Source of the DNA: a virus
IMG/VR virus record: IMGVR_UViG_3300029319_000297
Location: 1-30,897 of that record
Strand: one strand, 5' to 3'
Length of the DNA stretch: 30,897 nucleotides
Below, in pieces: positions 14,770 through 29,241 of the stretch (positions are counted from its first letter, which is position 1; each line of letters starts with the position of its first letter). The position numbers were made by a program, and so were the translations under genes. The notes under the pieces are model-generated. The model was not told the DNA's origin and searched no databases. It was given only the letters and a program-made list of their open reading frames with translations.

Positions 14770-15394
14770 CAGACAACTATTAGAAAAAGGTTATATGATT
14801 GTTAATGGATTTGTTAATCCAGAATACTGTCATGAACTCTATCAAGACTTATTGAAAGATGGTAGAACAGAAAACACATTTATGTGTGATGACTTTCATG
14901 GTGCAGTTCACAACCACCCCAACCCAGTTGCAGCAGTTGAAATTCTACATTACATGACTAAGTATATGACTGACTTAGTTGAAGAGTCATTATTTCCTAC
15001 TTATTCATACATGAGAATCTACAATAAAGATTCTTTTTTAATCAAGCATACAGATAGACCTGCGTGTGAAATATCAGCAACAGTTCATTTAGGTTCAGAT
15101 AAAGAGTGGTCAATGGGTGTGGAACGTCCTATTACAAGAGCAAGATCAAAGATAAATCTAAAACCTGGTGATGCTATCATATATTTGGGTTGCACGACTC
15201 AGCATTGGAGAGAAGGTTCATATACAGGAGATCATTTTTGTCAACTATTCTTGCATTGGGTAAGGAGTAGAGGTAAATTTGCATATACTTTAAACGATAA
15301 GGACAGGACACAACCACCAAGCGGTTGGGTCGGAGACCTTGTGACAGAGTATGAGAATATGCTAACTGGCACAACACCCTCGACAGACCAGTAG
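14762..15394 (+). CDS. 2OG-Fe(II) oxygenase, H-T-D type, paralogue 2
   Basis: The 210-residue last member of the block has LIKHTDRPACEISATVHLG with H96-x-D98, PGDAIIYLGCTTQHWRE with H148, and HFCQLFLHWVRSRG. The ~45-residue tail after the core is absent from its neighbour. The 3' end of the gene contains the dyad and overlaps the -35 of the next promoter, so the boundary between oxygenase and early regions lies inside its final codons. Confidence 0.8.
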   Translation: MINRQLLEKGYMIVNGFVNPEYCHELYQDLLKDGRTENTFMCDDFHGAVHNHPNPVAAVEILHYMTKYMTDLVEESLFPTYSYMRIYNKDSFLIKHTDRPACEISATVHLGSDKEWSMGVERPITRARSKINLKPGDAIIYLGCTTQHWREGSYTGDHFCQLFLHWVRSRGKFAYTLNDKDRTQPPSGWVGDLVTEYENMLTGTTPSTDQ

Positions 15395-15408
15395 AATTGT
15401 GCTATGAT
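15350..15408 (+). promoter_or_regulatory. Sigma70-type promoter with degenerate dyad
   Basis: TCGACA (15380-15385), N17, TATGAT (15403-15408). A right half-site ACTGGCACA (15365-15373) ends 29 bp before the -10; the left half TATGAGAAT is weak. Drives the gene at 15435. Confidence 0.6.
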
Positions 15409-15434
15409 TCAGAGGTAGTAAATAACTCACAACA

Positions 15435-15635
15435 ATGCCTCAATTCACATTGACTTGTACTGATGATGACGAGACCATTACTAGCAAAGAGTTTGAAGCA
15501 ACAATTTTGACTGAAGTTGTTGAAAAAACTCAAGACTTTTTGCATGGTGTAGGTTACGTCTTTGAAGAATTGCAAGTCTTAGAAGAAAATGATGAAAGTG
15601 TAACAACAGATAATGTTATTCCTTTCAATCGTTAA
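15435..15635 (+). CDS. Small conserved phage protein, unknown function
   Basis: The 66-residue acidic protein (MPQFTLTCTDDDETITSKEFEATILTEVV...) has a predicted strand-helix pattern: FTLTCTD, then a helix through EVVEKTQDFLHGVGY. I recall similar small proteins from marine T4-like phages but know no function. It has its own promoter ending at 15408, with a short leader of about 20 nt. It is the first gene after the oxygenase block. Confidence 0.7.
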   Translation: MPQFTLTCTDDDETITSKEFEATILTEVVEKTQDFLHGVGYVFEELQVLEENDESVTTDNVIPFNR

Positions 15636-15673
15636 TACATAATACAAGTAGTTTATTAATTACTATCAATCAC

Positions 15674-15850
15674 ATGGGAAAAACTTTTCGCAGAGGTGGG
15701 TCTGAAAGGGGTAACTACTCTTTCGGCAAATCTATTCGGGATAAACGTCAAAACAATGGCGGTATTAACAGAGTTCCAAAGGGAGACTATTCTTATGAAA
15801 AAGACCAAGCAAGAGAAAGAAAACCAAGAACTCGAACGGATAGATGGTAA
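15674..15850 (+). CDS. 58-residue basic protein, unknown
   Basis: A 58-codon frame starts MGKTFRRGGSERGNYSFGKSIRDKR and ends RKPRTRTDRW. It is Arg/Lys/Gly-rich and likely unstructured, as expected for a nucleic-acid-binding tail. Another frame across part of this region starts only at GTG 15696, so the ATG here is better. It overlaps the following acidic gene by 56 bases in a different frame. Confidence 0.6.
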   Translation: MGKTFRRGGSERGNYSFGKSIRDKRQNNGGINRVPKGDYSYEKDQARERKPRTRTDRW

Positions 15851-15941
15851 GGAGTGGGAAGATGATGGTCTCGATTATGAAGACCTCTATTATGATGATA
15901 GTTCAGAAGTTGACTACGGATTAGAATACACCCTATCCTAA
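15795..15941 (+). CDS. 48-residue acidic protein, unknown
   Basis: The ATG at 15795 is chosen over an upstream GTG (15696) because GGGAG at 15781-15785 lies nine bases before it. The product is lysine/glutamate-rich at the start (MKKTKQEKENQELER), then strongly acidic (EWEDDGLDYEDLYYDD). The charge is opposite to that of the overlapping upstream gene. Whether the two proteins interact is unknown. Confidence 0.55.
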   Translation: MKKTKQEKENQELERIDGKEWEDDGLDYEDLYYDDSSEVDYGLEYTLS

Positions 15942-15945
15942 ATAA

Positions 15946-16224
15946 ATGAAAGATCAAGCATCAGTAGGACTAAACGAGAGTCCTACTGTAAAATATCAGA
16001 GGGCATTAGACCTCTTTACAGAGTCAGTTATGAAACCTGACCACGATTTGCGTGGGTGTGCATATAATCAAGATTGCTTCAATGAACTCATGGAGATCAG
16101 AGAACACGTCTTAAAATATCTATCGACTCTAAAATCAACACAAAACTTTGAAAACCCAGATGAGTCTGATATACTAGAGAATGAAAAGTTGATCGAAACA
16201 GCACCCCTCTCAAAATGGCGATAG
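15946..16224 (+). CDS. Hypothetical 92-residue protein
   Basis: The protein (MKDQASVGLNESPTVKYQ...) is predicted mostly helical, with no membrane segment and no motif I recognise. It starts five bases after the preceding stop and overlaps the next gene by 10 bases. It probably belongs to the transcript that begins at the 15403-15408 promoter. Confidence 0.65.
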   Translation: MKDQASVGLNESPTVKYQRALDLFTESVMKPDHDLRGCAYNQDCFNELMEIREHVLKYLSTLKSTQNFENPDESDILENEKLIETAPLSKWR

Positions 16225-16424
16225 CAATGTCAGTAATCAAATCCTCTATCTTAGACCAAGGTCAAAAAGAAATTTTAAAAGATGCTTTACTATCGTATGT
16301 AAGCAACCTACAAAAAAGATTTTTTAAAGACTCACTCATCACAGAAGAAATCTATCATCAAAAGATGAAAGAGATTCAAGATGTTGTTAGTTCCTTGCAT
16401 CTTAATGAACTATACAAGATGTGA
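16215..16424 (+). CDS. Hypothetical 69-residue helical protein
   Basis: The protein (MAIAMSVIKSSILDQGQKEI...) is predicted nearly all helical. A second Met at codon 5 (16227) is an alternative start. Its stop TGA lies inside the dyad at 16420-16443, and an intrinsic terminator follows 16 bases later. This closes the transcription unit begun at 15403. Confidence 0.6.
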   Translation: MAIAMSVIKSSILDQGQKEILKDALLSYVSNLQKRFFKDSLITEEIYHQKMKEIQDVVSSLHLNELYKM

Positions 16425-16479
16425 CAATTCATAAAGTGGATCAGTAGGGGTTGTTCCTTGCTGATTTTTACTGTACACT
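16420..16479 (+). promoter_or_regulatory. Promoter with dyad, overlapping a terminator
   Basis: Dyad TGTGACAAT-N6-AGTGGATCA (16420-16443), then TTGTTC (16451-16456), N17, TACACT (16474-16479). The dyad-to-(-10) gap is 30 bp. The predicted transcript start lies only a few bases before the ATG at 16489. Confidence 0.5.
16440..16469 (+). terminator. Intrinsic terminator
   Basis: A 10-bp stem (ATCAGTAGGG with CCTTGCTGAT, two G-T pairs) has the 6-base loop GTTGTT and is followed by TTTTT. It ends the unit 15435-16424. Its loop contains the -35 of the next promoter. Confidence 0.7.
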
Positions 16480-16488
16480 GATTATATT

Positions 16489-17070
16489 ATGAAACTTAGA
16501 CCAATGACAATTAATAAAGATATTGAACTTGTTGCAGATGCCTTGCAAGAGCAATTACCTTTTATTGTAGAGGAGTGGAATACAGTATCACTTCCATTAA
16601 TGGAGAAACTATACAGAAAATCATTCAAAGATATTTTCAAGAACAGACAGACTCAAGAGAAAACAAAAGCAATTAGTCCTATTATTGACGAGATTATTGC
16701 AGAGAAAATACAAGAGAAGGTTTCAGCATTCACAATTACAGAGGGAAAAGGATTTGATTATACTCTCAATGATACAGAAATTGAGTGGAAGAATAGTCTA
16801 TCAGAAAGTAACTCATGGACAGGTAACGGATATAGAAAAACCAACTGGCATTTCTTATGTAAGTTTATCCCTAATGAAGATGGTAAGATCGAAAAGTATT
16901 TCGCTTGCGTAGTTCCTTATGATATGTTAGAATCTAATTGGAGTGATACTGGTAACAGTAATTTCAGTTCTCTAACATTACAAAATGTAGATATGCACAA
17001 AGTTATGCAGATTGCTGGTCATTTCAAATCAGCAAAAAAATACCTAAAACCTAATTACGTCACAGTATGA
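16489..17070 (+). CDS. Possible PD-(D/E)XK nuclease (restriction-endonuclease-like)
   Basis: The 193-residue protein has GFD90Y, then EIE99WK101, followed by NSLSESNSWTGNGYRKTNWHFLCKF (in parts: SWTGNGYRKT and WHFLCKF). A D...E-x-K arrangement followed by a 'trp-thr-gly-asn' loop and a hydrophobic strand resembles type II restriction endonucleases of the PD-(D/E)XK fold. It is two genes upstream of a DNA methyltransferase, which supports the idea. The match is from pattern only; an unrelated phage protein is possible. The leader is nearly absent given the promoter at 16451-16479. Confidence 0.45.
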   Translation: MKLRPMTINKDIELVADALQEQLPFIVEEWNTVSLPLMEKLYRKSFKDIFKNRQTQEKTKAISPIIDEIIAEKIQEKVSAFTITEGKGFDYTLNDTEIEWKNSLSESNSWTGNGYRKTNWHFLCKFIPNEDGKIEKYFACVVPYDMLESNWSDTGNSNFSSLTLQNVDMHKVMQIAGHFKSAKKYLKPNYVTV

Positions 17071-17336
17071 TTCAATTTTTATTATTTAATGCAGGTTTTT
17101 TAAACCTCATGTTTTATGTTTTTGCAATAGGATTTGTAATCTCATTAATACTTGAACAGTTTGTAAGACAGACAGGTAATGAGAGAAACATTTATATTGT
17201 AGAGAGCAACAGGAAATACTGTTGGAGACAAGCATGGATTACAAATGCTTTTTGGTTCTTATGTAACATAGGATTATACATTGTCTCAAGAAATATGCAA
17301 ACACAACAGGTAGATACATTTTGGAACGGAATATAA
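17067..17336 (+). CDS. Small two-helix membrane protein
   Basis: The 89-residue protein has hydrophobic stretches at about 4-29 (FLLFNAGFLNLMFYVFAIGF) and 58-74 (TNAFWFLCNIGLYIV), separated by a basic, polar loop. It overlaps the preceding gene by 4 bases and the methyltransferase gene by 16, so all three are probably one coupled unit. The function is unknown. Membrane placement between a nuclease-like gene and a methylase is unusual. Confidence 0.65.
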   Translation: MIQFLLFNAGFLNLMFYVFAIGFVISLILEQFVRQTGNERNIYIVESNRKYCWRQAWITNAFWFLCNIGLYIVSRNMQTQQVDTFWNGI

Positions 17337-18124
17337 TCCATTTAAAAGATTGTATAGAAGGAATGAAAGAACTTGATGATAGTTCAATAGATGCTATCAT
17401 CACTTCTCCACCATACAACCTCAATATTAAATATGGTTTATATGCTGACAATAAACCTAAGCATGATTATCTTGATTGGTTAAAGACAGTATTTAAAGAA
17501 GGGAAACGTATCTTAAAAGATCAAGGACATCTATTTGTCAATATGGGTTATTCAAATGTTGACCCCTATGTTGGCATGGAAGTTGCAATGACATTAAGAG
17601 ACGATTGGGTATTACAAAATAATATTAATTGGGTTAAATCTATTCATGTCAATGATAAGACAAGTGGACATTTTAAACCAATTAATAGTAAAAGATTCTT
17701 ATGCCCAACATGGGAAAACTTATTTCACTTTACTAAAGATGGTAGCGTCAATATTGATAGACTATCTATTGGTGTCAAGTATGAGTACTATGAAGCAAAT
17801 TTAAGGCATAGTAAATCACTTGATAAACCAAAACCTAATCTAAGAGACAAAGGTAACGCATGGTTCATACCATACGAAACTATTAATAGCAAAGAACTTA
17901 GAGGAAAACATCCTGCTGTATTTCCAGTTAAGTTAGTAGAAGATTGTTTAAAACTTACTGGTATCAAAAATGGAATAGTTCTTGACCCATTTATGGGAAC
18001 TGGAAGCACAGCAGTTGCATCACAAAATTTATCATGGTCATATATTGGATATGATATTGATGAAGATTATGTTACGTTTGCAACACAAAGACTTAATAAT
18101 GTATTGACTCATGTATTAAGTTGA
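17321..18124 (+). CDS. DNA amino-methyltransferase (N4-cytosine or N6-adenine), beta type
   Basis: The 267-residue protein has the catalytic motif IV T28-SPPY-NLN and, later, the AdoMet-binding motif I D222-PFMGTGST, the order of beta-class enzymes. TSPPY is more common in N4-cytosine methylases, although some N6-adenine enzymes have it. The start is a TTG at 17321 because the conserved IIHLKDCIEGM segment precedes the first internal ATG. It follows a nuclease-like gene, so it may protect phage DNA from it or evade host restriction. Its last codons contain the -35 (TTGACT) of the next promoter. Confidence 0.9.
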   Translation: MERNIIHLKDCIEGMKELDDSSIDAIITSPPYNLNIKYGLYADNKPKHDYLDWLKTVFKEGKRILKDQGHLFVNMGYSNVDPYVGMEVAMTLRDDWVLQNNINWVKSIHVNDKTSGHFKPINSKRFLCPTWENLFHFTKDGSVNIDRLSIGVKYEYYEANLRHSKSLDKPKPNLRDKGNAWFIPYETINSKELRGKHPAVFPVKLVEDCLKLTGIKNGIVLDPFMGTGSTAVASQNLSWSYIGYDIDEDYVTFATQRLNNVLTHVLS

Positions 18125-18132
18125 TATATAAT
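18104..18132 (+). promoter_or_regulatory. Strong sigma70-type promoter, no dyad
   Basis: TTGACT (18104-18109), N17, TATAAT (18127-18132). No TGTG[AC]CA half-site lies at the usual distance. It drives the 374-residue gene at 18196 through a leader of about 57 nt. Confidence 0.7.
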
Positions 18133-18195
18133 AACGTCATCAACGGAACAATGCGTCTGTTTAGATGATACTTACCTACTATTACAGAGGATTAA

Positions 18196-19320
18196 ATGAA
18201 ACAACTAAAGGTTGGCGAATGGTATTCGCTACCAGTTAATATTGGAGATTGCTCTAATATTGAACTGGACGAGATCGAAATTGGTCTCATTTCAAGAGCA
18301 ACATTTTTAGAGTTGCCACAATGGATTACACAGAGAAGTGTAACCAACAGACTTAAAAAGAAAGGTGTGTTAGATCATCTTGCTAAACTATTCCCTACAC
18401 ACTTCATTGTAGCGTTGGCAGAACTAACACAAGACGATATATGGGAAGATGGTCGAGAGTTTGATGCAGGTACTGAGTGGACAATAGATGCCAACTCAAG
18501 GGGTCACATTTGGAGAAACCAAATGTCAGACAAGTTACCAGATAATGTGCTTGCTATCAAATATAAAGGAAAGTCATTACTTGATATAAGAAGTATCTAC
18601 TGGGCATTTGACAACCCAACAGCAGCAGAAGTTGCTGCAGAAGTTGTTACTGGTGTCTTGAGATCACTTAATGCAACATTACACACTAAGAAGTTTCAGA
18701 GTGGACAATTCGTAACAGCACTATCATACACTTGTATGTTTGATAATGCTACTGTTTACGGAGACAGAGGACTATGGACAGATAGTGATGATGACACTAT
18801 TACTAATAGTGAGTATAAAAGGAGAATGACATCACTTGCAGTTCAGCAATACCTACCAACTATACAAGCAGTTGATAATTTGTTGCATGAACATGGTATT
18901 TCTAAGGACTTCGATCAAACATTTATCACAGCACTATTCTTATTTCACTTAAAGATGGGTGTATTTGATGATAATGTTGTTAGAGTCATCAGACTACTAG
19001 CAGAAACTCAATTAGATTCTGACGGAGAGAAAGAAGGGATTGCAACTACTAAGACAGGTGCATTAACACCTCAAGGTTGGATTAAGAGAGAGAATGAGAG
19101 AGGTTACGAAAAGGTAGATCAGATCAAAATTCCTAACAGAGGAAAAATTGATGGATACTATGAAGGAGTGCCATTTTTCTGTTATTGGTTGTATATTGCA
19201 TCAACAGATGGATACACAAAGAAACAGAAATCAGGTGCAAAACAAGGGTACCGCAAGTGGTTTGATGACTTTATGTCTCGAACACCAATTACAAAGTTGG
19301 AGGAATTACTAACTAAATGA
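18196..19320 (+). CDS. Unknown 374-residue phage protein (weak ParB/sulfiredoxin-fold hint)
   Basis: I do not firmly recognise this protein. Residues ~40-130 contain LPQWITQRSVTNRLKKKGVLDHL and later TIDANSRGHIWRNQ. The latter loosely recalls the D-G-x-x-R segment of ParB/sulfiredoxin-like domains, but with Ala-Asn-Ser in place of Gly. The rest is mixed alpha/beta with a Lys/Arg-rich end (TKKQKSGAKQGYRKWFDDF). An AGAGG ribosome-binding site sits seven bases before the ATG. It has its own strong promoter and lies between a methylase and a helicase, so a role in DNA modification or phage takeover is possible. Confidence 0.7.
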   Translation: MKQLKVGEWYSLPVNIGDCSNIELDEIEIGLISRATFLELPQWITQRSVTNRLKKKGVLDHLAKLFPTHFIVALAELTQDDIWEDGREFDAGTEWTIDANSRGHIWRNQMSDKLPDNVLAIKYKGKSLLDIRSIYWAFDNPTAAEVAAEVVTGVLRSLNATLHTKKFQSGQFVTALSYTCMFDNATVYGDRGLWTDSDDDTITNSEYKRRMTSLAVQQYLPTIQAVDNLLHEHGISKDFDQTFITALFLFHLKMGVFDDNVVRVIRLLAETQLDSDGEKEGIATTKTGALTPQGWIKRENERGYEKVDQIKIPNRGKIDGYYEGVPFFCYWLYIASTDGYTKKQKSGAKQGYRKWFDDFMSRTPITKLEELLTK

Positions 19321-19511
19321 AACGTGAGATCAAACTTCTCAAGAAATGTATAAAGAAAGGGGAACAGACCCCTTTCCTATACAATGAAGAAGAAACCTTA
19401 AGATTAAAAACAAAATTAAAACAGTTGCAAGATTGGTATGAAAGTGCTAGAATTGCTCAGAACAACGGATTTGGTCAATACATAGACCAACCGAAACCGC
19501 CCAAACCATAA
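19317..19511 (+). CDS. Hypothetical 64-residue basic protein
   Basis: The protein (MKREIKLLKKCIKKGEQTPF...) is helical and basic, ending in a proline-rich tail (QPKPPKP). An ATGA overlap joins it to the preceding 374-residue gene. Its stop lies in the dyad-like sequence before the next promoter, and a terminator follows within 11 bases. Confidence 0.65.
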   Translation: MKREIKLLKKCIKKGEQTPFLYNEEETLRLKTKLKQLQDWYESARIAQNNGFGQYIDQPKPPKP

Positions 19512-19554
19512 ACTGTCACAACCCCTTGCACAAGGGGTTTTTTTATTGTATAAT
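19497..19554 (+). promoter_or_regulatory. Promoter with right half-site, overlapping a terminator
   Basis: A perfect right half-site ACTGTCACA (19512-19520) has a poor left half. It is followed by TTGCAC (19526-19531), N17, TATAAT (19549-19554). The gap to the -10 is 28 bp. Drives the helicase gene at 19573. Confidence 0.6.
19522..19544 (+). terminator. Intrinsic terminator
   Basis: CCCCTT pairs with AAGGGG around a GCAC loop, followed by seven T. It ends the unit 18196-19511. The next promoter's -35 (TTGCAC) lies inside the hairpin. Confidence 0.85.
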
Positions 19555-19572
19555 GAATCTATTGATTAAATT

Positions 19573-20802
19573 ATGATGATTAACTTGAGACCACATCAGG
19601 ATAAATGTTTTGATGCTATGCAGATAAACAATGTTGGTCAAGTTATTGTACCAACAGGTGGTGGTAAAACATATATTATGATTGAAGATGCTATCAATCA
19701 GTTTAAAAGTCCAGTTGCAAATACTATTGTAGTTGTTGCACCTCGTATCTTGCTTGCTAATCAGTTGTGTGCAGAATTCACCGAGTTCATCACCGATACT
19801 GAAGTTGCTCATGTTCACTCAGGAGAGACACATCACTATTCAACTACAAAAGCAAGTAGAATATCTGTATGGGCAACAAAGAATTGTGCCTATAATCAGA
19901 TAATATTCACAACATATCATTCATTACATAAGATTGTAGAGAGTGGTATTCATGTAGATACTATCTATTATGATGAAGCACACAATGGAACACAAAAGAA
20001 CTTTTTTGAAGCAGTAAAAACTATTACCGCAGATCGTAAGTTTTACTTTACAGCAACACCTAAAATCAGTAAAAGTGGTGCGGAAAATGGTATGGACAAC
20101 AGCAAAGTTTGGGGAAACATTATTGCTAATGTACCTGCCAAAACCCTTATCAATACTGGTGCTATAGTTCCACCTAAGGTAGTTCCGTTTAAAACAAATA
20201 GAGTGCGGAACAAAGAGAATGCACACGAAGTTGATGCGGACAACCTCAAGGACATGATTAATAGTCTTGATGATGGTAACCATAAGATTCTTGTATCAGC
20301 ACCTAGTAGTAAAATACTTGGCAAGATGCTAGGACACACCCCTATTCTTGACTATCTTACTACAAATGGATATGACGTATTACACATCACATCTAAATTT
20401 GGTGCTATCATCAATGGCAAGAAGGTAGGAAGAGAAAAGTTTTTCGATACTCTTACTAAGTGGGGTGCAGATAATGACAGAAAGTTTATTATCTTTCACT
20501 ATTCTATTCTTAGTGAAGGTATTAATGTCAATGGACTAACTCATACAATACTATTGAGAAACCTACCTATTATCGAAATGGCACAAACTATTGGTAGAGT
20601 CATTCGAGTTCATAAAGATGATCGCAAAGCAGTTGCTGAAGGTCTCATTCCCTCAGGAGCATTCCATTTATACAAGAAAGCATTTGGACAAGTAACAATG
20701 CCTATCGGGTATCGTATGGGAGACGTTACAAAGATGAGACTTGAGCAAGTTGTAAACAGTATCTTTATTGAAGGAGTACCACCCCTCGCATATTGCATCT
20801 AA
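19573..20802 (+). CDS. SF2 DEAH-box DNA helicase
   Basis: The 409-residue protein has LRPHQDKCFDAM (about 5-16), Walker A VPTGGGKT (26-33), DEAH at 134-137, FTATP at 159-163 and QTIGRVIR around 338-345. These are the ordered motifs of SF2 helicases of the UvsW/RecG/type III Res group. No fused nuclease domain is seen. T4 UvsW homologues unwind branched DNA, but this protein is shorter than those I know, so the symbol is not assigned. It lies between two methyltransferases and overlaps the second by one base. Either recombination/repair or part of a modification system is possible. Confidence 0.9.
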   Translation: MMINLRPHQDKCFDAMQINNVGQVIVPTGGGKTYIMIEDAINQFKSPVANTIVVVAPRILLANQLCAEFTEFITDTEVAHVHSGETHHYSTTKASRISVWATKNCAYNQIIFTTYHSLHKIVESGIHVDTIYYDEAHNGTQKNFFEAVKTITADRKFYFTATPKISKSGAENGMDNSKVWGNIIANVPAKTLINTGAIVPPKVVPFKTNRVRNKENAHEVDADNLKDMINSLDDGNHKILVSAPSSKILGKMLGHTPILDYLTTNGYDVLHITSKFGAIINGKKVGREKFFDTLTKWGADNDRKFIIFHYSILSEGINVNGLTHTILLRNLPIIEMAQTIGRVIRVHKDDRKAVAEGLIPSGAFHLYKKAFGQVTMPIGYRMGDVTKMRLEQVVNSIFIEGVPPLAYCI

Positions 20803-21722: not shown

Positions 21723-21782
21723 TGTGCCACTTGAGGTACTGTCACACATATGGTTGCATAGGTGTAGCATATGCTTTATATT
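21723..21782 (+). promoter_or_regulatory. Dyad-containing early promoter
   Basis: Dyad TGTGCCACT-N6-ACTGTCACA (21723-21746), 30-bp gap, TATATT (21777-21782). A -35-like TTGCAT (21754-21759) is spaced by 17. Its transcript would start at about 21789. Confidence 0.7.
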
Positions 21783-21788
21783 AAGAAT

Positions 21789-21881
21789 GTCGAAACAAAC
21801 CAACGTAAAACTTTCAAGGTAACGGATACCCAGAGGAATACGTTTTTAAATCGAACTTAAGTAGTTGAGTTTTGTTTCGAC
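21789..21881 (+). promoter_or_regulatory. Structured 5' leader with 11-bp closing stem
   Basis: GTCGAAACAAA (21789-21799) is perfectly complementary to TTTGTTTCGAC (21871-21881). CAAC/GTTG can continue the stem inside. The left arm begins seven bases after the -10, at the predicted first transcribed base. TCAAG (21814-21818) and GGATACCC (21824-21831) recur in the leader at 22921. No known riboswitch class was recognised. Confidence 0.5.
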
Positions 21882-21904
21882 CCACTCACTTTATCCCAGA
21901 GGTC

Positions 21905-22439: not shown

Positions 22440-22654
22440 AACCCAAGAATTATCAAGTAACAGAAATTGAACTCTACTTATCTGAAGTTGGAGACGGAGA
22501 CCCCGATTTACAATTTACACCTCAAGAGGAGTATGTTATGCACCAAAGATGTCTAGGCAGATGGACAGCATACAATGAAGATGACCTAAGAAATCGAATT
22601 TATGATTTTATAGGTTATCATGCAGAAACACTTAAATACGAGGTAAGATCATGA
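22436..22654 (+). CDS. Hypothetical 72-residue protein
   Basis: The protein (MKPKNYQVTEIELYLSEVGDGDPDLQFTP...) contains EEYVMHQRCLGRWTAYNEDDLRNRIYDF. It is soluble, mixed charge, and unrecognised. ATGA overlaps join it to both neighbours in a five-gene run (21905-22866). Confidence 0.65.
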   Translation: MKPKNYQVTEIELYLSEVGDGDPDLQFTPQEEYVMHQRCLGRWTAYNEDDLRNRIYDFIGYHAETLKYEVRS

Positions 22655-22866
22655 TCGCATTTTCTCAAAAGTATTATCCATACTTGAATGAGTATGAACA
22701 ACAGTATAATGACATTTGGTTTTTTAAAATGTTATCTCAATTAAAGTTAGATGGTAAACTTTATATCCCCGATCTTGATTTATGGTTTAACAAGAAGGGA
22801 GAAGAATGTGAACCTTACGAAGGTAACACATATATCGAACAAATGAAACCAGAGTATGCCAGTTAA
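22651..22866 (+). CDS. Hypothetical 71-residue aromatic-rich protein
   Basis: The protein (MIAFSQKYYPYLNEYEQQYNDIWFFK...) is unusually rich in Tyr, Trp and Phe, and ends EQMKPEYAS. The last codons (TAT GCC AGT TAA) are the left half and spacer of the next dyad, so the C-terminal sequence may be set by the operator. Function unknown. Confidence 0.65.
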   Translation: MIAFSQKYYPYLNEYEQQYNDIWFFKMLSQLKLDGKLYIPDLDLWFNKKGEECEPYEGNTYIEQMKPEYAS

Positions 22867-22914
22867 AGTACTGTCACATAACTGATTGCACTTGTTTTTA
22901 ATATCCTTTATATT
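22855..22914 (+). promoter_or_regulatory. Dyad-containing early promoter
   Basis: Dyad TATGCCAGT-N6-ACTGTCACA (22855-22878), 30-bp gap, TATATT (22909-22914). TTGCAC (22886-22891) is a possible -35 with spacing 17. The dyad spans the stop of the gene before. Confidence 0.7.
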
Positions 22915-22920
22915 AAGAAC

Positions 22921-22972
22921 ATAGAGGTTATGCAAACATTTATCAAGTGCTTTGGGATACCCTAACCTCTAT
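22921..22972 (+). promoter_or_regulatory. Structured 5' leader with 10-bp closing stem
   Basis: ATAGAGGTTA (22921-22930) is perfectly complementary to TAACCTCTAT (22963-22972). The stem starts seven bases after the -10, as in the leader at 21789. The loop holds TCAAG (22943-22947) and GGATACCC (22955-22962). An 11-codon frame (22930-22965) lies inside it, ending within the right arm. Confidence 0.5.
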
Positions 22973-22995
22973 AACAAACATTTATTCCTAAGATT

Positions 22996-23445
22996 ATGCC
23001 AAATTGGTGCTATAATAGAGTTAGTATTTACTCAGAAAATACAGAAACAGTTGATAAGTTATTTGACATTTTCAACAACCCCGAACCATTTAATACACTT
23101 ATCCCTAGTCCAAAATGGTCAGAAACACCTAACGAAGATGGAGAGTTACCAGTATTAGATGAGCATAAAGATGCTGATGGTAATGTTGTATTCACAACTA
23201 ACAAATTTCCAAAGTCAGGAAAAAATGACGATAGATGGTATGATTGGCAGATTGAAAACTGGGGAACTAAGTGGGAACCTGCTGATGTTGATGTTGAGCA
23301 ATGTGAACAAGAACTTGAAATCACATTTAATACAGCATGGAGTCCACCAGAAAATATTTGTAGAGCAATTAGAAACAAATATCCTGATGTATCAGTAAGT
23401 TGGTTCTATGATGAACCAAGCATGGAAGTTGCAGGTTATCTATAA
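22996..23445 (+). CDS. Api92/YubB-like ferredoxin-fold protein
   Basis: The 149-residue protein starts MPNWCYNRVSIYS, the signature beginning of Api92-like (DUF1281-type) proteins found in phages and plasmids. It also has FNTLIPSPK, WYDWQIENWGTKWEPADV and a C-terminal strand VSWFYDEPSMEVAGY. The fold is thought to be ferredoxin-like. Its function is unknown; it binds no Fe-S cluster. It is expressed from a structured leader with its own promoter and is single-cistron, since the next promoter follows. Confidence 0.8.
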   Translation: MPNWCYNRVSIYSENTETVDKLFDIFNNPEPFNTLIPSPKWSETPNEDGELPVLDEHKDADGNVVFTTNKFPKSGKNDDRWYDWQIENWGTKWEPADVDVEQCEQELEITFNTAWSPPENICRAIRNKYPDVSVSWFYDEPSMEVAGYL

Positions 23446-23468
23446 ACCTGTAACTTGTCAATAGTACT

Positions 23469-23527
23469 TGTGCCAGTTAATTATGTGTCACACACTACCA
23501 CGCATAGGGTATAAAATCCCTTATAAT
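23469..23527 (+). promoter_or_regulatory. Dyad-containing early promoter
   Basis: Dyad TGTGCCAGT-N6-TGTGTCACA (23469-23492), 29-bp gap, TATAAT (23522-23527). No convincing -35 is visible. Drives 23550. Confidence 0.7.
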
Positions 23528-23549
23528 AAGAATATCAAACAAAAGGAAA

Positions 23550-23810
23550 ATGACTCTTCCCACTCAAAACCTTTACGAACAAATGTTCATGAAACAAGAA
23601 GAACCGATTGACTTCTTAGTTACTATCTACGAAGACTATCTAAGCAAGCATAATCTACCAGAATATGATGCAAGCGATATGCTTCATGCTCATCATATTG
23701 GAGAGATCGAACTTCATGACTCTCAAATCGGTTGGTTCAACAACTTTATTCGCTTATGGGATTTTGTTGCTGAAGCAGAATATCAAAACTTTGCATATCA
23801 GGGAGCATAA
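23550..23810 (+). CDS. Hypothetical 86-residue protein
   Basis: The protein (MTLPTQNLYEQMFMKQEEPIDFLV...) contains a His-rich middle (ASDMLHAHHIGEIELHDSQIGWFNN) and an acidic helix. The His cluster could bind a metal, but no family is recognised. AAAGG precedes the ATG at 23550. The next gene starts one base after the stop. Confidence 0.65.
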   Translation: MTLPTQNLYEQMFMKQEEPIDFLVTIYEDYLSKHNLPEYDASDMLHAHHIGEIELHDSQIGWFNNFIRLWDFVAEAEYQNFAYQGA

Positions 23811-23811
23811 A

Positions 23812-24135
23812 ATGGAATTTAAAGAAGAAATCCAAAGAGCAAAAAATTTGAATGACCAAATTAAACTAGAAAAATTTGGTATGACTCAGAATGAGTTACA
23901 GGAACTTAGATGGCATTTAGTCGATCGTATTGTCGATAATATGTCACTAGAGGATTTAGTTCAATATGTCAAAGAGGACATGGAGAACATGGTTAATGAC
24001 TTGCCTGATGTTGAATTCCTAGACCAAGCGAAGGATTACTGGGAAGATCACTATGATGAAGTTGTTACTGAGATTAAGCAGTATGCTAACTCAGATTTCA
24101 AAAAACCTTTAGAGGAGAGAAGAAACAATGACTAG
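23812..24135 (+). CDS. Hypothetical 107-residue acidic helical protein
   Basis: The ATG at 23812 is used rather than an upstream in-frame Met, because that region is coding in another frame for the gene before. The protein (MEFKEEIQRAKNLNDQIKLEKFGM...) is predicted all helical and acidic (DNMSLEDLVQYVKEDMENMVNDLPDVEF). It overlaps the next small gene by 8 bases. Function unknown. Confidence 0.65.
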   Translation: MEFKEEIQRAKNLNDQIKLEKFGMTQNELQELRWHLVDRIVDNMSLEDLVQYVKEDMENMVNDLPDVEFLDQAKDYWEDHYDEVVTEIKQYANSDFKKPLEERRNND

Positions 24136-24259
24136 ATCAGAACTAGAAAACAAGATTATCAATTTTGTTTTAGAGAATAATCTTGATGCTTCATTTGTAC
24201 AACAAACAGAAGGATTAACTTATGTTCGCTTCACAGTAGAGGAGGATTCTGAAGAATGA
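24128..24259 (+). CDS. 43-residue hypothetical protein
   Basis: The frame MTRSELENKIINFVLENNLDASF... ends FTVEEDSEE. It begins 8 bases inside the previous gene, has GAGGAGAG upstream as ribosome-binding site, and ends in an ATGA overlap with the next gene. These links support a real gene. A helix followed by two strands is predicted; function unknown. Confidence 0.6.
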   Translation: MTRSELENKIINFVLENNLDASFVQQTEGLTYVRFTVEEDSEE

Positions 24260-24438
24260 ACTATAAGCAATTAATTGAATTAGAAGGTTACATTAATCTA
24301 TGGGAAGTTATCCCAGAGGATAAACATTCAAAACTTGCTAACCTGATATGGAAAGCACTTGATGATGAAGGAATTACATTAACACAAGATGCAGAGTTAA
24401 GCATTAGAGTATATGACAGTTTAGATAGTGGCACATAG
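24256..24438 (+). CDS. Hypothetical 60-residue protein
   Basis: The protein (MNYKQLIELEGYINLWEVIPEDKH...) is acidic and helical and ends SIRVYDSLDSGT. The final ~9 codons coincide with the dyad at 24412-24435. It is the last gene of the 23550-24438 unit. Function unknown. Confidence 0.65.
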   Translation: MNYKQLIELEGYINLWEVIPEDKHSKLANLIWKALDDEGITLTQDAELSIRVYDSLDSGT

Positions 24439-24470
24439 TACTCCTATTCCTATATCATTACCTTTATAAT
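24412..24470 (+). promoter_or_regulatory. Dyad-containing early promoter
   Basis: Dyad TATGACAGT-N6-AGTGGCACA (24412-24435), 29-bp gap, TATAAT (24465-24470) followed by AAGAGTAAC. No -35 is visible (TCCTAT at the expected place). The dyad lies wholly inside the preceding coding sequence. Confidence 0.7.
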
Positions 24471-24492
24471 AAGAGTAACAACAAAAGGAATT

Positions 24493-24765
24493 ATGCAATT
24501 CAAATCTCAAAACGAAGAAACAGTAATTGACTACTACGAGGTTCACAATGCTCAAAGAGAGACAATTAAAAATGCGAGATTGAGAATCGTTACTTTCTTG
24601 GGTAAGACAATTTCAAGAAATCCAATTAATGTTTTTGACATGGCAGAAGAGATTGACGTGTTACTTGAAAAGAACTATGCAGTTACTTGTAACACTAAAA
24701 GACCATCACAGTATCTACTAGGTGTGACAGCACAGAAAGTGGCACAGTCTCGCACCTCTTTCTAA
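24493..24765 (+). CDS. Hypothetical 90-residue protein
   Basis: The protein (MQFKSQNEETVIDYYEVHNAQRETIKN...) has a basic middle (ARLRIVTFLGKTISRN) and ends LGVTAQKVAQSRTSF. It is a single-gene transcription unit with promoters on both sides. Its last 43 bases contain the next dyad. Function unknown. Confidence 0.65.
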   Translation: MQFKSQNEETVIDYYEVHNAQRETIKNARLRIVTFLGKTISRNPINVFDMAEEIDVLLEKNYAVTCNTKRPSQYLLGVTAQKVAQSRTSF

Positions 24766-24781
24766 TTCTATCCTTTATAAT
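24723..24781 (+). promoter_or_regulatory. Dyad-containing early promoter
   Basis: Dyad TGTGACAGC-N6-AGTGGCACA (24723-24746), 29-bp gap, TATAAT (24776-24781). No -35 is visible. The dyad lies inside the preceding gene. Confidence 0.7.
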
Positions 24782-24802
24782 AAAAGTAATTAAACAAACA
24801 AA

Positions 24803-25102
24803 ATGACTTCACTTCAAATCTTAAATGCTCACAGACAGATCAACGATTTTGTTGACTATGTTGATTCATTCTATGGAACTAATGACCCATTATACCCATT
24901 ATACAAAGATGGAGTAGCATTGACTAAAGAAGATATACGTCACGCTACTATCGTATATTTGGATAGGTGCGGTAATGATGATTTTGAATATTGCACATGG
25001 GGAGACGGAGATTCACTAGATCGTGAGAGAGTCAGAGATATTCTATCATCTAAATTTGGATATGGCGAGAGCAAATTTTATAGAAGTGTGACAGTAAGAT
25101 AA
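24803..25102 (+). CDS. Hypothetical 99-residue protein
   Basis: The protein (MTSLQILNAHRQINDFVDYVDSFYG...) is acidic, with aromatic-rich segments (YGTNDPLYPLYKDGVALTKEDIRHA) and ends FYRSVTVR. Its last codons form the left half of the next dyad. Single-gene unit. Function unknown. Confidence 0.65.
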   Translation: MTSLQILNAHRQINDFVDYVDSFYGTNDPLYPLYKDGVALTKEDIRHATIVYLDRCGNDDFEYCTWGDGDSLDRERVRDILSSKFGYGESKFYRSVTVR

Positions 25103-25145
25103 CTGTCACATAACCAGTTGAATTTGGTATTCAATCCTTTATAAT
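25087..25145 (+). promoter_or_regulatory. Dyad-containing early promoter (perfect dyad)
   Basis: Perfect dyad TGTGACAGT-N6-ACTGTCACA (25087-25110), 29-bp gap, TATAAT (25140-25145). TTGAAT (25118-25123, N16) is a weak -35. The spacer holds most of the preceding stop codon. Confidence 0.8.
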
Positions 25146-25166
25146 AAGAGTAACAACAAAAGAAAA

Positions 25167-25409
25167 ATGAATTCTACAGTAACTTACACAGAACCAGTAA
25201 ACAGAATCAAACAGAGAATTCTATTTGATGATAACCTCGATAACCTTACTTGCTTATGTGCAAATTGGGAAGAATTTGTAATTGAGATTTCAGAGTGGGG
25301 AATTTACAAGTTAGGAGGAGTTGATTTTGATACTCTAACTACTGAAGACATTGCTAAACTAGATCAGTTTATGGTCTCACAAAATGGATACGAAAAGGAG
25401 GACTTTTGA
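25167..25409 (+). CDS. Hypothetical 80-residue acidic protein
   Basis: The protein (MNSTVTYTEPVNRIKQRILFDDNLD...) is acidic (DFDTLTTEDIAKLDQF), soluble, with one Cys pair (CLC). No family is recognised. The next gene's strong ribosome-binding site (AGGAGG, 25396-25401) lies within its last codons. Confidence 0.65.
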   Translation: MNSTVTYTEPVNRIKQRILFDDNLDNLTCLCANWEEFVIEISEWGIYKLGGVDFDTLTTEDIAKLDQFMVSQNGYEKEDF

Positions 25410-25410
25410 A

Positions 25411-25656
25411 ATGGGTGCTAAATGTGACGTATGTGCTAATTTTGATGAGAATTATAGGCAAGAAATGGAGTTCCCTAAAACTTCAGATCATTGCATTCAA
25501 GATTATCAACCTGATCTTTATTACTATTGGGATAGTCCAATAGAAGAGGATTATAATTGGAGAGATTCTTTTCCATATGCAGATTGTATGTGCGAGATAT
25601 GTTTTGATATAGCAAATCGAGAAAAGAAAATCAAGTGGAATTGTGCCAGTACTTAA
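25411..25656 (+). CDS. Small Cys-rich, probably zinc-binding protein
   Basis: The 81-residue protein has CDVCANF near the start and HCIQ, CMCEIC and NCAS later. Two C-x2-C-type pairs plus extra Cys/His could bind Zn. The ATG at 25411 is chosen over an upstream ATG (25384) because AGGAGG lies nine bases before it and the previous gene stops at 25409. The middle is acidic and Tyr/Trp-rich (DYQPDLYYYWDSP). The last codons (TGT GCC AGT) are the next dyad's left half. Function unknown; a small Zn protein acting on host transcription is possible. Confidence 0.65.
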   Translation: MGAKCDVCANFDENYRQEMEFPKTSDHCIQDYQPDLYYYWDSPIEEDYNWRDSFPYADCMCEICFDIANREKKIKWNCAST

Positions 25657-25700
25657 ACTGTCACACAGTTCCCCTATTCCCATAAATTTCCCTTTATAAT
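25642..25700 (+). promoter_or_regulatory. Dyad-containing early promoter
   Basis: Dyad TGTGCCAGT-N6-ACTGTCACA (25642-25665), 29-bp gap, TATAAT (25695-25700), then AAGAGTAATT. No -35 is visible (CCCTAT). The spacer contains the preceding stop. Confidence 0.75.
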
Positions 25701-25721
25701 AAGAGTAATTAAACAAACATC

Positions 25722-26171
25722 ATGACAACATTATCACTAAAAGAGAGAGTTGAAGATTGGACAGTAGAGCATTGTCTAGCACTTGAGCAGAATTATCTTA
25801 ACTACCATAAAAGAATGGTAACCTCTAACTTTGAGAGATATAACGGAGTTAGATCAGATTTATCTGACTATGCTAAAGAGCAACTTGACTCTATCGAAAA
25901 TGGAACTTTCAGAGGTAAGAAATTCACTTTTACTGAAGGTAAAAAGTATTTGAAAGTTATCATGAATGACTATAATAGTATCACTAAAAAGTATGATGGT
26001 CGAGGAGTCCATTGTTTTATCGATAAGAATACTGGGGAAGTGTATAAAGCAGCATCATGGAAAAGTCCTGCTAGAGGAGTCAGATTTGACATGAGAATTA
26101 TAAGGGAGAGAGAACTATTACATAATCCTAGTTTTGTTTCTTGGAGTGGAGGTTATCTATATGCCAGATAA
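25722..26171 (+). CDS. Conserved phage protein of unknown function
   Basis: The 149-residue protein has a helical N-terminal half, then GKKYLKVIM, RGVHCFIDKNTGEVYKAASWKSPARGVRFD. The segment 'V-H-x-F-x-D-x-N-T-G-x-x-Y-K-x-A-S-W-K-x-P-A-x-G-V-R' is one I recognise as widespread in marine and other phages, with no known function. Single-gene unit with its own dyad promoter. Its end (TAT GCC AGA TAA) is the next dyad's left half and spacer. Confidence 0.75.
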   Translation: MTTLSLKERVEDWTVEHCLALEQNYLNYHKRMVTSNFERYNGVRSDLSDYAKEQLDSIENGTFRGKKFTFTEGKKYLKVIMNDYNSITKKYDGRGVHCFIDKNTGEVYKAASWKSPARGVRFDMRIIRERELLHNPSFVSWSGGYLYAR

Positions 26172-26222
26172 TAAACTGTCACAAGAGAGGTTGCAATTCC
26201 TCTCTTTATTTCCTATTATAAT
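26160..26222 (+). promoter_or_regulatory. Dyad-containing early promoter, overlapping a terminator
   Basis: Dyad TATGCCAGA-N6-ACTGTCACA (26160-26183). The best -10 is TATTAT (26214-26219, 30-bp gap), with TTGCAA (26191-26196) at N17; the overlapping TATAAT at 26217-26222 is an alternative. Spacer TAATAA carries the preceding stop. Confidence 0.65.
26184..26210 (+). terminator. Intrinsic terminator
   Basis: AGAGAGG (26184-26190) pairs with CCTCTCT (26199-26205) around the 8-base loop TTGCAATT, followed by TTATT. The -35 of the promoter for 26247 lies in the loop. Confidence 0.65.
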
Positions 26223-26246
26223 AATAACGATACATCAGACATTATC

Positions 26247-26465
26247 ATGACTATTTCAAATCAGAAACTAGCAAAAGGTTGGAACATTGAAGTAAGTGCT
26301 TCACAATTTGAGTATCTTTGCGAAGTGCTAATGGAAGCGAATGCTATGGACGTAGCAGAGCAAAAAGAGTGGGATGTACAAACATTCGATAATCTAATTG
26401 ATAACGTATGCAATGCTAAAGAGACATACTTATCAAGAGACTGTAAAGGAGTTTACGCAAAATGA
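26247..26465 (+). CDS. Hypothetical 72-residue protein
   Basis: The protein (MTISNQKLAKGWNIEVSASQFEYL...) is acidic and helical with two Cys near the C-terminus (NVCNAK, SRDCKG). No family is recognised. It is first of a two-gene unit and ends in an ATGA overlap. Confidence 0.65.
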   Translation: MTISNQKLAKGWNIEVSASQFEYLCEVLMEANAMDVAEQKEWDVQTFDNLIDNVCNAKETYLSRDCKGVYAK

Positions 26466-26797
26466 GAACTTATATATTCAAAGATTTTCTAAACGATAAG
26501 CATGGTAAGTTTTTACCATTGCGAACTATTGAATCAGAAGAATTTGGTAGGCACTTCTTTATTGACATTGGATTTAATTTCATATCAGCACCTAGTCTAA
26601 TTGATGGTGGATATGATGAGAGTCAACTGGATTATGTCAGTAACTGGACAGACATGGAAGGAGTCAACCTTACGAAACTATTTGACATATATCGAGATTT
26701 GACTTGGCAAGAAAATCAAGATAATAAAGATAAAGCACACACAGAAATGTGCGAATACATGGAAGCGGTCGAGTCGGGAGAAATCGAATATCTATAA
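26462..26797 (+). CDS. Hypothetical 111-residue protein
   Basis: The protein (MRTYIFKDFLNDKHGKFLPLRTIES...) has a strand-rich N-terminal half (FGRHFFIDIGFNFI) and an acidic helical C-terminus (TEMCEYMEAVESGEIEYL). It is unrecognised. Translation is coupled to the preceding gene by ATGA. About 33 bases separate its stop from the next dyad. Confidence 0.65.
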   Translation: MRTYIFKDFLNDKHGKFLPLRTIESEEFGRHFFIDIGFNFISAPSLIDGGYDESQLDYVSNWTDMEGVNLTKLFDIYRDLTWQENQDNKDKAHTEMCEYMEAVESGEIEYL

Positions 26798-26829
26798 TAA
26801 CATCAAACAGACCACTTTTCAATAGTATA

Positions 26830-26888
26830 TGTGACACTTATATTACTGTCACATGTACTCCCCATTGTGGTTGGCGGTCGCCTATAAT
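26830..26888 (+). promoter_or_regulatory. Dyad-containing early promoter (intergenic dyad)
   Basis: Dyad TGTGACACT-N6-ACTGTCACA (26830-26853), 29-bp gap, TATAAT (26883-26888). This copy is fully intergenic, showing the dyad is kept without a coding constraint. Confidence 0.75.
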
Positions 26889-26915
26889 TAGAATATAACA
26901 AACAAAGAAACTATC

Positions 26916-27206
26916 ATGAATTTATTTGACGCAGTTCCATTTTTCGTAGATCAAGAGTTAGGTTACGAAGTTGACGAAGAGAACATCAGTTCATTTGAAG
27001 TCAGACGAGTTTTTAACATAGTTGTCGATAATTGCGATAACTTCTCATTAAGCACATTAACACCAAAAAATCATATGATGATTTTACGCATGGTGCGAAA
27101 TGCGATTTATATGATGACTTCAGAAGATGAGAACGAGAGAGAAGAGTTTAAAAATATGGTAAGGGAGGTTAAGCAAGATTTAGCGAGGAAAGTGGCAGTT
27201 GCATAA
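26916..27206 (+). CDS. Hypothetical 96-residue protein
   Basis: The protein (MNLFDAVPFFVDQELGYEVDEENIS...) is Met-rich in the middle (NHMMILRMVRNAIYMMTSEDE) and predicted mainly helical. Its final codons (GTG GCA GTT GCA TAA) coincide with the next dyad. Single-gene unit, function unknown. Confidence 0.65.
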   Translation: MNLFDAVPFFVDQELGYEVDEENISSFEVRRVFNIVVDNCDNFSLSTLTPKNHMMILRMVRNAIYMMTSEDENEREEFKNMVREVKQDLARKVAVA

Positions 27207-27249
27207 CTGTCACATTGACTTGCCATAATGCCCACTAATCCATTATAAT
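27191..27249 (+). promoter_or_regulatory. Dyad-containing early promoter
   Basis: Dyad AGTGGCAGT-N6-ACTGTCACA (27191-27214), 29-bp gap, TATAAT (27244-27249). TTGCCA (27220-27225, N18) is a weak -35. Drives the run 27269-28457. Confidence 0.75.
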
Positions 27250-27268
27250 AAAAGAAATCGGAGAAAAA

Positions 27269-27451
27269 ATGTCAACACTACATCACGAATCATTGCTCGA
27301 AACTTGCTATGATGAAGCATGGATCGATTACGCTATTGCTAACAACTTGACTCAAGACGAGTTGACAGAGATCGATCAAAATTCTGAACTAGGTTATCTA
27401 CCAGAGATCGCAGAGGAAGCAGAAAGGAGATTTACAGAATTATGTCAGTAA
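27269..27451 (+). CDS. Hypothetical 60-residue acidic protein
   Basis: The protein (MSTLHHESLLETCYDEAWIDYAIAN...) is very acidic and helical. CGGAG lies before the ATG. It is the first gene of a six-gene run without internal promoters, and overlaps the next gene by 10 bases. Function unknown. Confidence 0.65.
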   Translation: MSTLHHESLLETCYDEAWIDYAIANNLTQDELTEIDQNSELGYLPEIAEEAERRFTELCQ

Positions 27452-27660
27452 ATTTTACTCAGCGATATATATCCCCTAAGTTTATTGGGGTATCTGATAA
27501 TGTAAGATACAAAAATAAGGACTATCAGGTTCTAATCAATTACATTAAAGGAGATAAGGACAGAAAAGGATTTATCCCAACAGAGAATTTTACCGTACTC
27601 ATTGATGATAGAGGTAAAAGAGTTTACTGTCACAATTTTAAAGATTTAGAGATCATTTAA
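27442..27660 (+). CDS. Hypothetical 72-residue beta-rich protein
   Basis: The protein (MSVNFTQRYISPKFIGVSDNVRY...) is basic with alternating short strands (DYQVLINYI, NFTVLIDDRGKRVY), perhaps a small beta-barrel; no family is identified. AAAGGAGA within the previous gene is its ribosome-binding site. It contains an isolated ACTGTCACA at 27626-27634 with no partner or -10. Confidence 0.65.
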   Translation: MSVNFTQRYISPKFIGVSDNVRYKNKDYQVLINYIKGDKDRKGFIPTENFTVLIDDRGKRVYCHNFKDLEII

Positions 27661-27662
27661 TC

Positions 27663-27863
27663 ATGGAACTTACTAAAAAACAACTTGAGTATATGCTTAC
27701 TTGCTTAAACTTTCACTATTCAGAAAGCGATCATAAAGAGTTTTATCTTGAGATCAATTCTAGTATAGCGAGGTTAGTCAATCATGAACTAGAGCAAATC
27801 GAAGCATATAAAAGTAAGATAGATAGAAACAGAGCAAAGCAACCCAAACCAGAGTGGGAGTAA
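27663..27863 (+). CDS. Hypothetical 66-residue helical protein
   Basis: The protein (MELTKKQLEYMLTCLNFHYSESDHK...) is charged and helical, ending in a Lys/Pro-rich tail (KQPKPEWE). It starts two bases after the previous stop. No family is recognised. Confidence 0.6.
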   Translation: MELTKKQLEYMLTCLNFHYSESDHKEFYLEINSSIARLVNHELEQIEAYKSKIDRNRAKQPKPEWE

Positions 27864-27867
27864 AAAA

Positions 27868-28095
27868 TTGCATCATGTTTTATATGAATGGTCGGAGTTA
27901 GTGGAAATCGATCAGCAACTAACCAAACTTGAAAAGGGAATTGAACTAATTAAAGAAATTAACTCAATTCTTTATAATAGCGATAATCGGGAACTATTGC
28001 AACATAGTCACATTATCCAAAAGGAATTAGAGCAACAATTCCAGGAAATTCAATCTATTTTTGAAGATAGACTCAAAAAAACTAATCTAACATAA
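27868..28095 (+). CDS. Hypothetical 75-residue coiled-coil-like protein
   Basis: The start is TTG at 27868 with GGGAG seven bases upstream; no in-frame ATG is near. The protein (MHHVLYEWSELVEIDQQLTKLEKG...) is almost all Leu/Ile/Glu/Lys helix with heptad-like spacing (LEQQFQEIQSIFEDRLKK), so it may form a coiled coil. Function unknown. Confidence 0.55.
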   Translation: MHHVLYEWSELVEIDQQLTKLEKGIELIKEINSILYNSDNRELLQHSHIIQKELEQQFQEIQSIFEDRLKKTNLT

Positions 28096-28332
28096 ATGGA
28101 GCATAAAGTCAAGTTAAATCATTTCTATAGGCATAAAAGTGATCTAGGTTATATCGCTTTTATATGTAAGGACTATTGCACTTTAGTAGTCAGAGAAAGC
28201 GAGGATAAAGAGACTATAAACGGAGTCAGACAAACTAAGGTATTAATTAATCGAAGTGAATGGGATAACATGAAAACAGTTAATAAAAAAGAAGTTGCGG
28301 ACGTGTTTCCGCACTTAGATATAAAGCAATAA
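28096..28332 (+). CDS. Hypothetical 78-residue protein
   Basis: The protein (MEHKVKLNHFYRHKSDLGYIAFICK...) is basic, with strands in the first half and NGVRQTKVLINRSEWDNM in the second. The ATG follows the preceding stop directly, and its stop overlaps the next ATG. No family is recognised. Confidence 0.65.
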   Translation: MEHKVKLNHFYRHKSDLGYIAFICKDYCTLVVRESEDKETINGVRQTKVLINRSEWDNMKTVNKKEVADVFPHLDIKQ

Positions 28333-28457
28333 TGAAAGATGATAAAATACTCAAACCTAAGGAATTGCAATATATTTGGACTATATTGAAAGAAATTAGT
28401 GTAACCCTATGGGAGGAAGTTAGAAAGCGAGGATACTGGAAAAAAGAAGAAAAATAG
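28332..28457 (+). CDS. 41-residue hypothetical protein
   Basis: The frame MKDDKILKPKELQYIWTILKEISV... ends WKKEEK. It is linked to the previous gene by a TAATG overlap and closes the run from 27269. Amphipathic helix with a Lys/Glu tail; function unknown. Confidence 0.55.
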   Translation: MKDDKILKPKELQYIWTILKEISVTLWEEVRKRGYWKKEEK

Positions 28458-28573
28458 AAATCTTTTTAAATGTTAAAATAAATCTAGTTAAGTGTTCTAT
28501 CTGTTACACTCTTAGCACGCATCTTATGAGGTGTCAAGCATTGCGAGGATATCGAAATATTGTAAAGTCGCAG
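28458..28573 (+). other. Non-coding stretch with possible RNA structure
   Basis: Between the 41-residue gene and the next promoter lie AGTGT/ACACT (28491-28510) and TGCGA/TCGCA (28542-28572) pairings. TCAAG (28534-28538) is followed by GGATATC (28547-28553), recalling the element inside the two structured leaders. No gene is seen. Confidence 0.35.
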
Positions 28574-28602
28574 TTGACATAAATTCTAATGTACTGTAAA
28601 AT
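28574..28602 (+). promoter_or_regulatory. Strong sigma70-type promoter, no dyad
   Basis: TTGACA (28574-28579), N17, TAAAAT (28597-28602). No dyad lies upstream. Drives 28612. Confidence 0.7.
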
Positions 28603-28611
28603 AACACTGAG

Positions 28612-28839
28612 GTGTTTCAGAAAACTATGGTCTATTCACTCTATGATGATAAACATGAATTGGTAGAAACATTTAATAGTATCTACGAATTACAAACTTA
28701 TATACATGATTTTAGAGTTAATCGAGACGAATGGAGAATAAGGAAAAATAAAGACGTATCAGTCTTTGATTATATCAAGTCAATCGGATATAGTTGGGAC
28801 GTTGTACCAGTTGAACAAGTGTCACAAGAGAAGTTGTAA
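28612..28839 (+). CDS. Hypothetical 75-residue protein
   Basis: Two starts are possible. GTG at 28612 would be nearly leaderless from the promoter at 28574-28602; ATG at 28627 gives 70 residues. The protein (MVYSLYDDKHELVETFNSIYELQTY...) has a short strand then helices and ends VPVEQVSQEKL. The next dyad lies in its last codons. Function unknown. Confidence 0.6.
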   Translation: MFQKTMVYSLYDDKHELVETFNSIYELQTYIHDFRVNRDEWRIRKNKDVSVFDYIKSIGYSWDVVPVEQVSQEKL

Positions 28840-28861
28840 TGGGTTGCCCTATTGCTATAAT
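28803..28861 (+). promoter_or_regulatory. Dyad-containing early promoter
   Basis: Dyad TGTACCAGT-N6-AGTGTCACA (28803-28826), 29-bp gap, TATAAT (28856-28861). TTGTAA (28834-28839, N16) is a weak -35. The dyad lies inside the preceding gene. Confidence 0.7.
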
Positions 28862-29212: not shown

Positions 29213-29241
29213 TTGACATCTCACACGGATAACACTATAAT
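29213..29241 (+). promoter_or_regulatory. Strong sigma70-type promoter, no dyad
   Basis: TTGACA (29213-29218), N17, TATAAT (29236-29241). No dyad is present. Transcription would start near 29248, inside the loop of the overlapping terminator. Confidence 0.7.

Follow-up and report, generated by a model that had tools for sequence, protein, structure and literature searches.

Early promoters of T4-like cyanophages carry, at a near-fixed distance upstream of the -10, a 24-bp dyad that we read, with a probability of roughly 80%, as the operator of a putative dimeric activator, one that would aid the host sigma-70 polymerase at promoters poor in -35 information. The dyad has the consensus TGTGMCASTn6ASTGKCACA, that is, two 9-letter half-sites inverted around a 6-bp spacer. 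It stands in strict register with the -10, is conserved across the family at early-module and orthologous genes, and has no host counterparts. T4-like cyanophages rank with the most abundant viruses that infect picocyanobacteria in the ocean.

The stretch analyzed here, called the window, is a 30.9-kb virus contig. In BLAST comparisons, its portion from 21.6 to 28.9 kb best matches T4-like cyanophages, and the nearest relatives are P-RSM4 and S-TIM4 (Thaumasvirus, Kyanoviridae), which align over 22% of the query at about 82% identity. Judged from these matches, the window represents part of the genome of a T4-like cyanophage of the Kyanoviridae. The dyads sit among short ORFs annotated without function, in a module that matches approximately 40-54 kb of the P-RSM4 and S-TIM4 genomes. 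Before this early module, at 7485-15394, lie about 12 adjacent ORFs, several of which look by eye like 2OG-Fe(II) oxygenases.

Dyad promoters of the window

Scanning the window with TGTGMCASTN6ASTGKCACA at up to three mismatches returns exactly 13 full sites, all on the + strand. The initial annotation had placed 13 full dyads and one half-site at these same positions, and had held that an equal density in shuffled sequence would speak against them; dinucleotide shuffles of the window contain 0.15 dyads on average and one at most. Eleven sites are strong, with PWM scores of 26.7-32.8. The remaining two full sites, 15350 and 16420, are weak (three mismatches, PWM about 14), and a score above 12 was also reached in one of five shuffles. 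The 14th site, at 19497, consists of the right half-site only.

All 14 promoters read along the + strand. The weak pair comes first: 15350-15408, with the -10 TATGAT at 15403-15408, precedes ORF 15435 (phrog_935), and 16420-16479, with TACACT at 16474-16479, precedes ORF 16489. Two strong dyads are followed by TATATT, namely 21723-21782 (-10 at 21777-21782) and 22855-22914 (-10 at 22909-22914). Eight have TATAAT: 23469-23527; 24412-24470, before ORF 24493 (phrog_500); 24723-24781, before ORF 24803; 25087-25145, before ORF 25167; 25642-25700, before ORF 25722 (phrog_818); 26830-26888, before ORF 26916; 27191-27249, before ORF 27269; and 28803-28861, before ORF 28891 (Pfam Kyano_Gp96), for which P-TIM40, P-RSM4, and Syn9 have an orthologous dyad promoter. 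The promoter at 26160-26219, before ORF 26247, has TATTAT at 30 bp; an alternative reading is TATAAT at 33 bp.

At the half-site promoter (19510-19554), the right half-site AACTGTCACA is followed by a terminator hairpin at the place of the -35 and by the -10 TATAAT at 19549-19554, upstream of the helicase gene at 19573. We consider this half-site trustworthy because the same helicase gene is preceded in P-RSM4, S-PM2, and S-SSM7 by full or near-full dyads at 28-29 bp. The hairpin and its T-run occupy the space between dyad and -10 both here and in the P-RSM4 counterpart. Thus, the -35 region can accommodate other elements.

Re-measured, the distance from dyad to -10 takes the values first proposed: 29 bp in nine cases, 30 bp in four, and 28 bp in one, the half-site, which centers the dyad near -53.5. 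In a logo of 50 promoters aligned at the 29-bp offset, information is confined to the dyad, the -10, and an A-rich start region, with at most 0.54 bit between dyad and -10, and the better-conserved half-site is the promoter-proximal one. The best TTGACA match at 66 dyad promoters averages 3.06 of 6 letters, versus 2.54 at random positions. The early remark that several dyad promoters have no -35 holds for most of them and is not absolute: seven of the 66 reach a match of at least 5/6. The start codon lies at a near-constant 25-36 bp past the -10 in most dyad promoters.

This anatomy bears on whether the bound protein would activate or repress. Symmetric operators are typical of repressors, and early transcripts of phage P-HM2 peak at about 0.5 h (PMC5082946), as might be expected if a phage repressor closed the early genes later in infection. 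A repressor, however, would not need a register of 28-30 bp, and it would be bound at a site centered at -53.5, clear of the core promoter, upstream of promoters that are themselves poor in -35 information. We therefore regard an operator devoted to repression as improbable, while noting that the same site could also be where a repressor binds or a shut-off switch acts.

Distribution in phages and hosts

Scans of related phages and of candidate hosts, both proposed in the initial annotation, give opposite outcomes. Whole genomes of isolates were scanned, with reversed-pattern controls giving 0 or 1 sites. Syn9, S-PM2, P-SSM2, P-TIM40, P-SSM4, S-SSM7, the freshwater phage S-CRM01, and P-HM2 each contain 6-22 dyads, and the layout is present in nine of the ten T4-like cyanophage isolates scanned. 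The exception, P-TIM68, has three weak dyads only. In this member of the Kyanoviridae (KM359505), the dyad is nearly lost from the early module, and the weak copies stand before phrog_459 and phrog_481-type genes. Genome scans find no dyad in T4 or P-SSP7, and S-TIM5 and Ma-LMM01 are essentially without it, with one or two sites each.

The register is shared as well. A -10 follows at 28-30 bp at 12/12 sites in P-RSM4, 15/16 in S-SSM7, 9/10 in P-TIM40, 16/22 in S-CRM01, 9/13 in P-HM2, 8/12 in S-PM2, 7/10 in P-SSM4, and 4/6 in Syn9, where chance would give 8-13%. In IMG/VR loci, a -10 stands at this distance from 184 of the 207 exact dyads, versus 10% of random positions, and the histogram of offsets peaks sharply at 29-30. 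Moreover, orthologous genes in different genera share dyad promoters: the Kyano_Gp96 gene (PF23790), the helicase gene, the phrog_459 gene encoding 740 amino acids, and phrog_481.

Hosts present the reverse picture, with no dyad excess over control at three stringencies. Specifically, eight picocyanobacterial genomes yield two dyad matches at up to two mismatches, both in one genome; seven yield 18 matches at up to three mismatches, versus 60 with the reversed pattern; and 61 yield about 71 matches to the inner core of the dyad, versus 236 in the control. In 300 Cyanobiaceae genomes at up to one mismatch, the dyad occurs in nine, with at most one site having a -10 in register. We therefore reject a host regulon of the dyad, and a host regulator with a chromosomal dyad regulon is unlikely.

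These scans also weigh on the idea that the phages hijack a host transcription factor, with the dyad as its operator, as they do PhoB at some S-PM2 promoters. Early genes need immediate reading by the host machinery, and phage promoters bound by host PhoB are documented (PMC10976474); set against this is the lack of dyad excess in picocyanobacterial genomes, and on balance we think such a hijacking rather unlikely. A host protein with different sites on its own chromosome is a possible dyad reader.

We note that a few Cyanobiaceae MAGs contain near-identical dyads without a promoter. At one MAG locus, a pair at 5000 and 6272, about 1.27 kb apart, flanks a PIN/HTH gene pair; another has a type I restriction gene on one side and a small operon on the other. 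Considered as promoters, the MAG dyads were rejected: their -10 register is no better than chance, and some resemble the flanks of mobile cassettes. The promoter-less copies are possibly cassette recombination sites. Extended to the phages, that interpretation would make the dyad, with its 9-6-9 arms, a recombinase site or mobile-element end that lies near promoters by chance. The promoter-less host copies, including the pair around the PIN/HTH genes, lend it something; the phage dyads, however, are locked both to the -10 and to orthologous genes, and we give it hardly any credence.

Leader RNAs and promoters without the dyad

Two of the dyad promoters are followed, on the + strand, by predicted structured leader RNAs that have a UCAAG...GGAUACC core in common. 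Leader 1 (21789-21881; fold z -1.9, with covariation) belongs to the 21723 promoter, and the shorter leader 2 (22920-22975; fold z -2.2) follows the 22855 promoter. Leader 1 recurs at about 99% identity in P-RSM4, and likewise in S-TIM4, standing there before another gene; the P-SSM4 copy is 80% identical. More than 20 IMG/VR contigs carry it, most with a dyad promoter 66-71 bp upstream of the leader core. Its copies precede different genes, and in some variants about 50-125 nt are inserted after GGAUACC. Across the three nested helices, two-sided changes occur at 9 of 20 pairs and 96% of cells are paired; none of 500 shuffles does as well, and slid controls are about 50% paired. Rfam has no match for either leader, and the leader 1 core finds only three single-mismatch matches in 300 host genomes. 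By these comparisons, leader 1 is a phage-specific, covarying leader RNA, predicted to be transcribed from some dyad promoters and absent from Rfam. Relatives of leader 2 occur in P-TIM40 (52518) and in IMG/VR contigs, and its variants, inspected by eye, keep the closing stem through changed pairs.

Three further promoters on the + strand have no dyad and carry the TTGACT or TTGACA first described; their sequence shows a canonical -35, a 17-bp spacer, and a -10: the host-like TTGACT-17-TATAAT at 18104-18132, TTGACA-17-TAAAAT at 28574-28602, and the consensus TTGACA-17-TATAAT at 29213-29241. The last runs directly into a terminator hairpin with a T-run (29242-29265), on which its start falls, and its transcript would be only about 25 nt long. 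P-SSM4 has the same layout of perfect-consensus promoter and terminator hairpin at 51677.

Known systems and the candidate reader

In their abstract, Doron et al. 2016 reportedly describe a novel regulatory element that controls early-gene transcription in Syn9, and P-TIM40 is said to have given similar results. The element is reportedly conserved in T4-like cyanophages, whose middle genes are said to use host-like promoters, and the study is not known to name the protein that binds it. The canonical promoters at 18104, 28574, and 29213 fit the host-like class reported for middle genes. The dyad resembles the published element in that both concern early genes, belong to T4-like cyanophages, and are widespread; both phages carry it in their early modules, P-TIM40 with eight dyads at 48.9-55.0 kb and Syn9 with dyads at 46.3-53 kb, with a -10 about 29 bp from each. 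Dyad and published element are very probably one and the same. A description of the motif was not found in papers citing Doron et al. 2016. Given that the Syn9 and P-TIM40 element has reportedly been published already, the dyad is probably not new.

Among other known systems, the late promoters of phages P2 and P4 have a comparable layout. These are served by Ogr/Delta activators, which are small and phage-made; they have a dyad near -55 and no -35, and the P2 site reads TGT-N12-ACA. The position is similar (about -55 versus about -53.5), as is the lack of a -35. The sequence differs, however, with the outer TGT and ACA here 18 bp apart, and no Ogr-type zinc-finger activator was seen in the subset of ORFs whose proteins were scanned. 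T4 middle promoters (MotA/AsiA) likewise combine a good -10 with an activator that replaces -35 contacts, but the MotA box lies near -30 and is not a dyad, and cyanomyoviruses are without motA and asiA (PMC2984593). The 50-promoter consensus also bears out the earlier judgment that the dyad matches CRP and NtcA spacing poorly. CRP shares the outer letters TGTG/CACA; its site is TGTGA-N6-TCACA, whereas the outer parts of the half-sites are 14 bp apart here. The GTA-N8-TAC of NtcA is absent from the consensus, and both spacing and inner letters differ.

The initial annotation proposed a dimeric activator that defines a phage regulon. The anatomy fits: the dyad is symmetric, the 28-30 bp register is strict, information resides only in the dyad and the -10, and conservation is family-wide, all of which argue for that reading. 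From this anatomy we infer protein binding, activation itself, and the presence of the factor from the start of infection. The notion is that a putative dimer would occupy -42 to -65, just upstream of the host sigma-70 RNA polymerase. From there it would contact the polymerase, probably through alpha-CTD or sigma, and so make up for a weak or absent -35; given that contact, a good -10 alone would suffice. The factor would be there from the beginning if it were virion-borne, if a first promoter produced it, or if it were a host protein that has no such sites on the host chromosome.

The activator had been allowed either a phage or a host origin. The host scans now disfavor a host regulator that has chromosomal sites of its own. 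Tentatively, and with somewhat less than even confidence, we suggest that the reader is an unrecognized early activator encoded by the Kyanoviridae, virion-borne or made first, without a host counterpart, that would replace T4 Alt and strong -35 boxes. Pfam recognized no HTH or other DNA-binding domain in 20 small conserved Kyanoviridae proteins. The MazE/AbrB-like phrog_661 was considered as the reader and rejected: it occurs in only six of nine isolate genomes with clear dyads, is missing in S-SSM7, S-CRM01, and P-HM2, and is weakly matched in S-TIM5, which is essentially dyad-free. In the window, its ORF (29647-29814, 55 amino acids) falls below the length cut of the ORF list, and in several Kyanoviridae it lies near Kyano_Gp96.

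Cyanomyoviruses have no alt, modA, modB, motA, or asiA (PMC2984593), and they therefore need other means of favoring their early genes. Its register, consensus, orthologous promoters, and absence from hosts now define the site precisely, so that the dyad reader can be sought by direct test. The same definition lets early promoters be called in uncultured phage genomes. Finally, the dyad may bear on how T4-like cyanophages, lacking Alt, MotA, and AsiA, take over the polymerase of their host.
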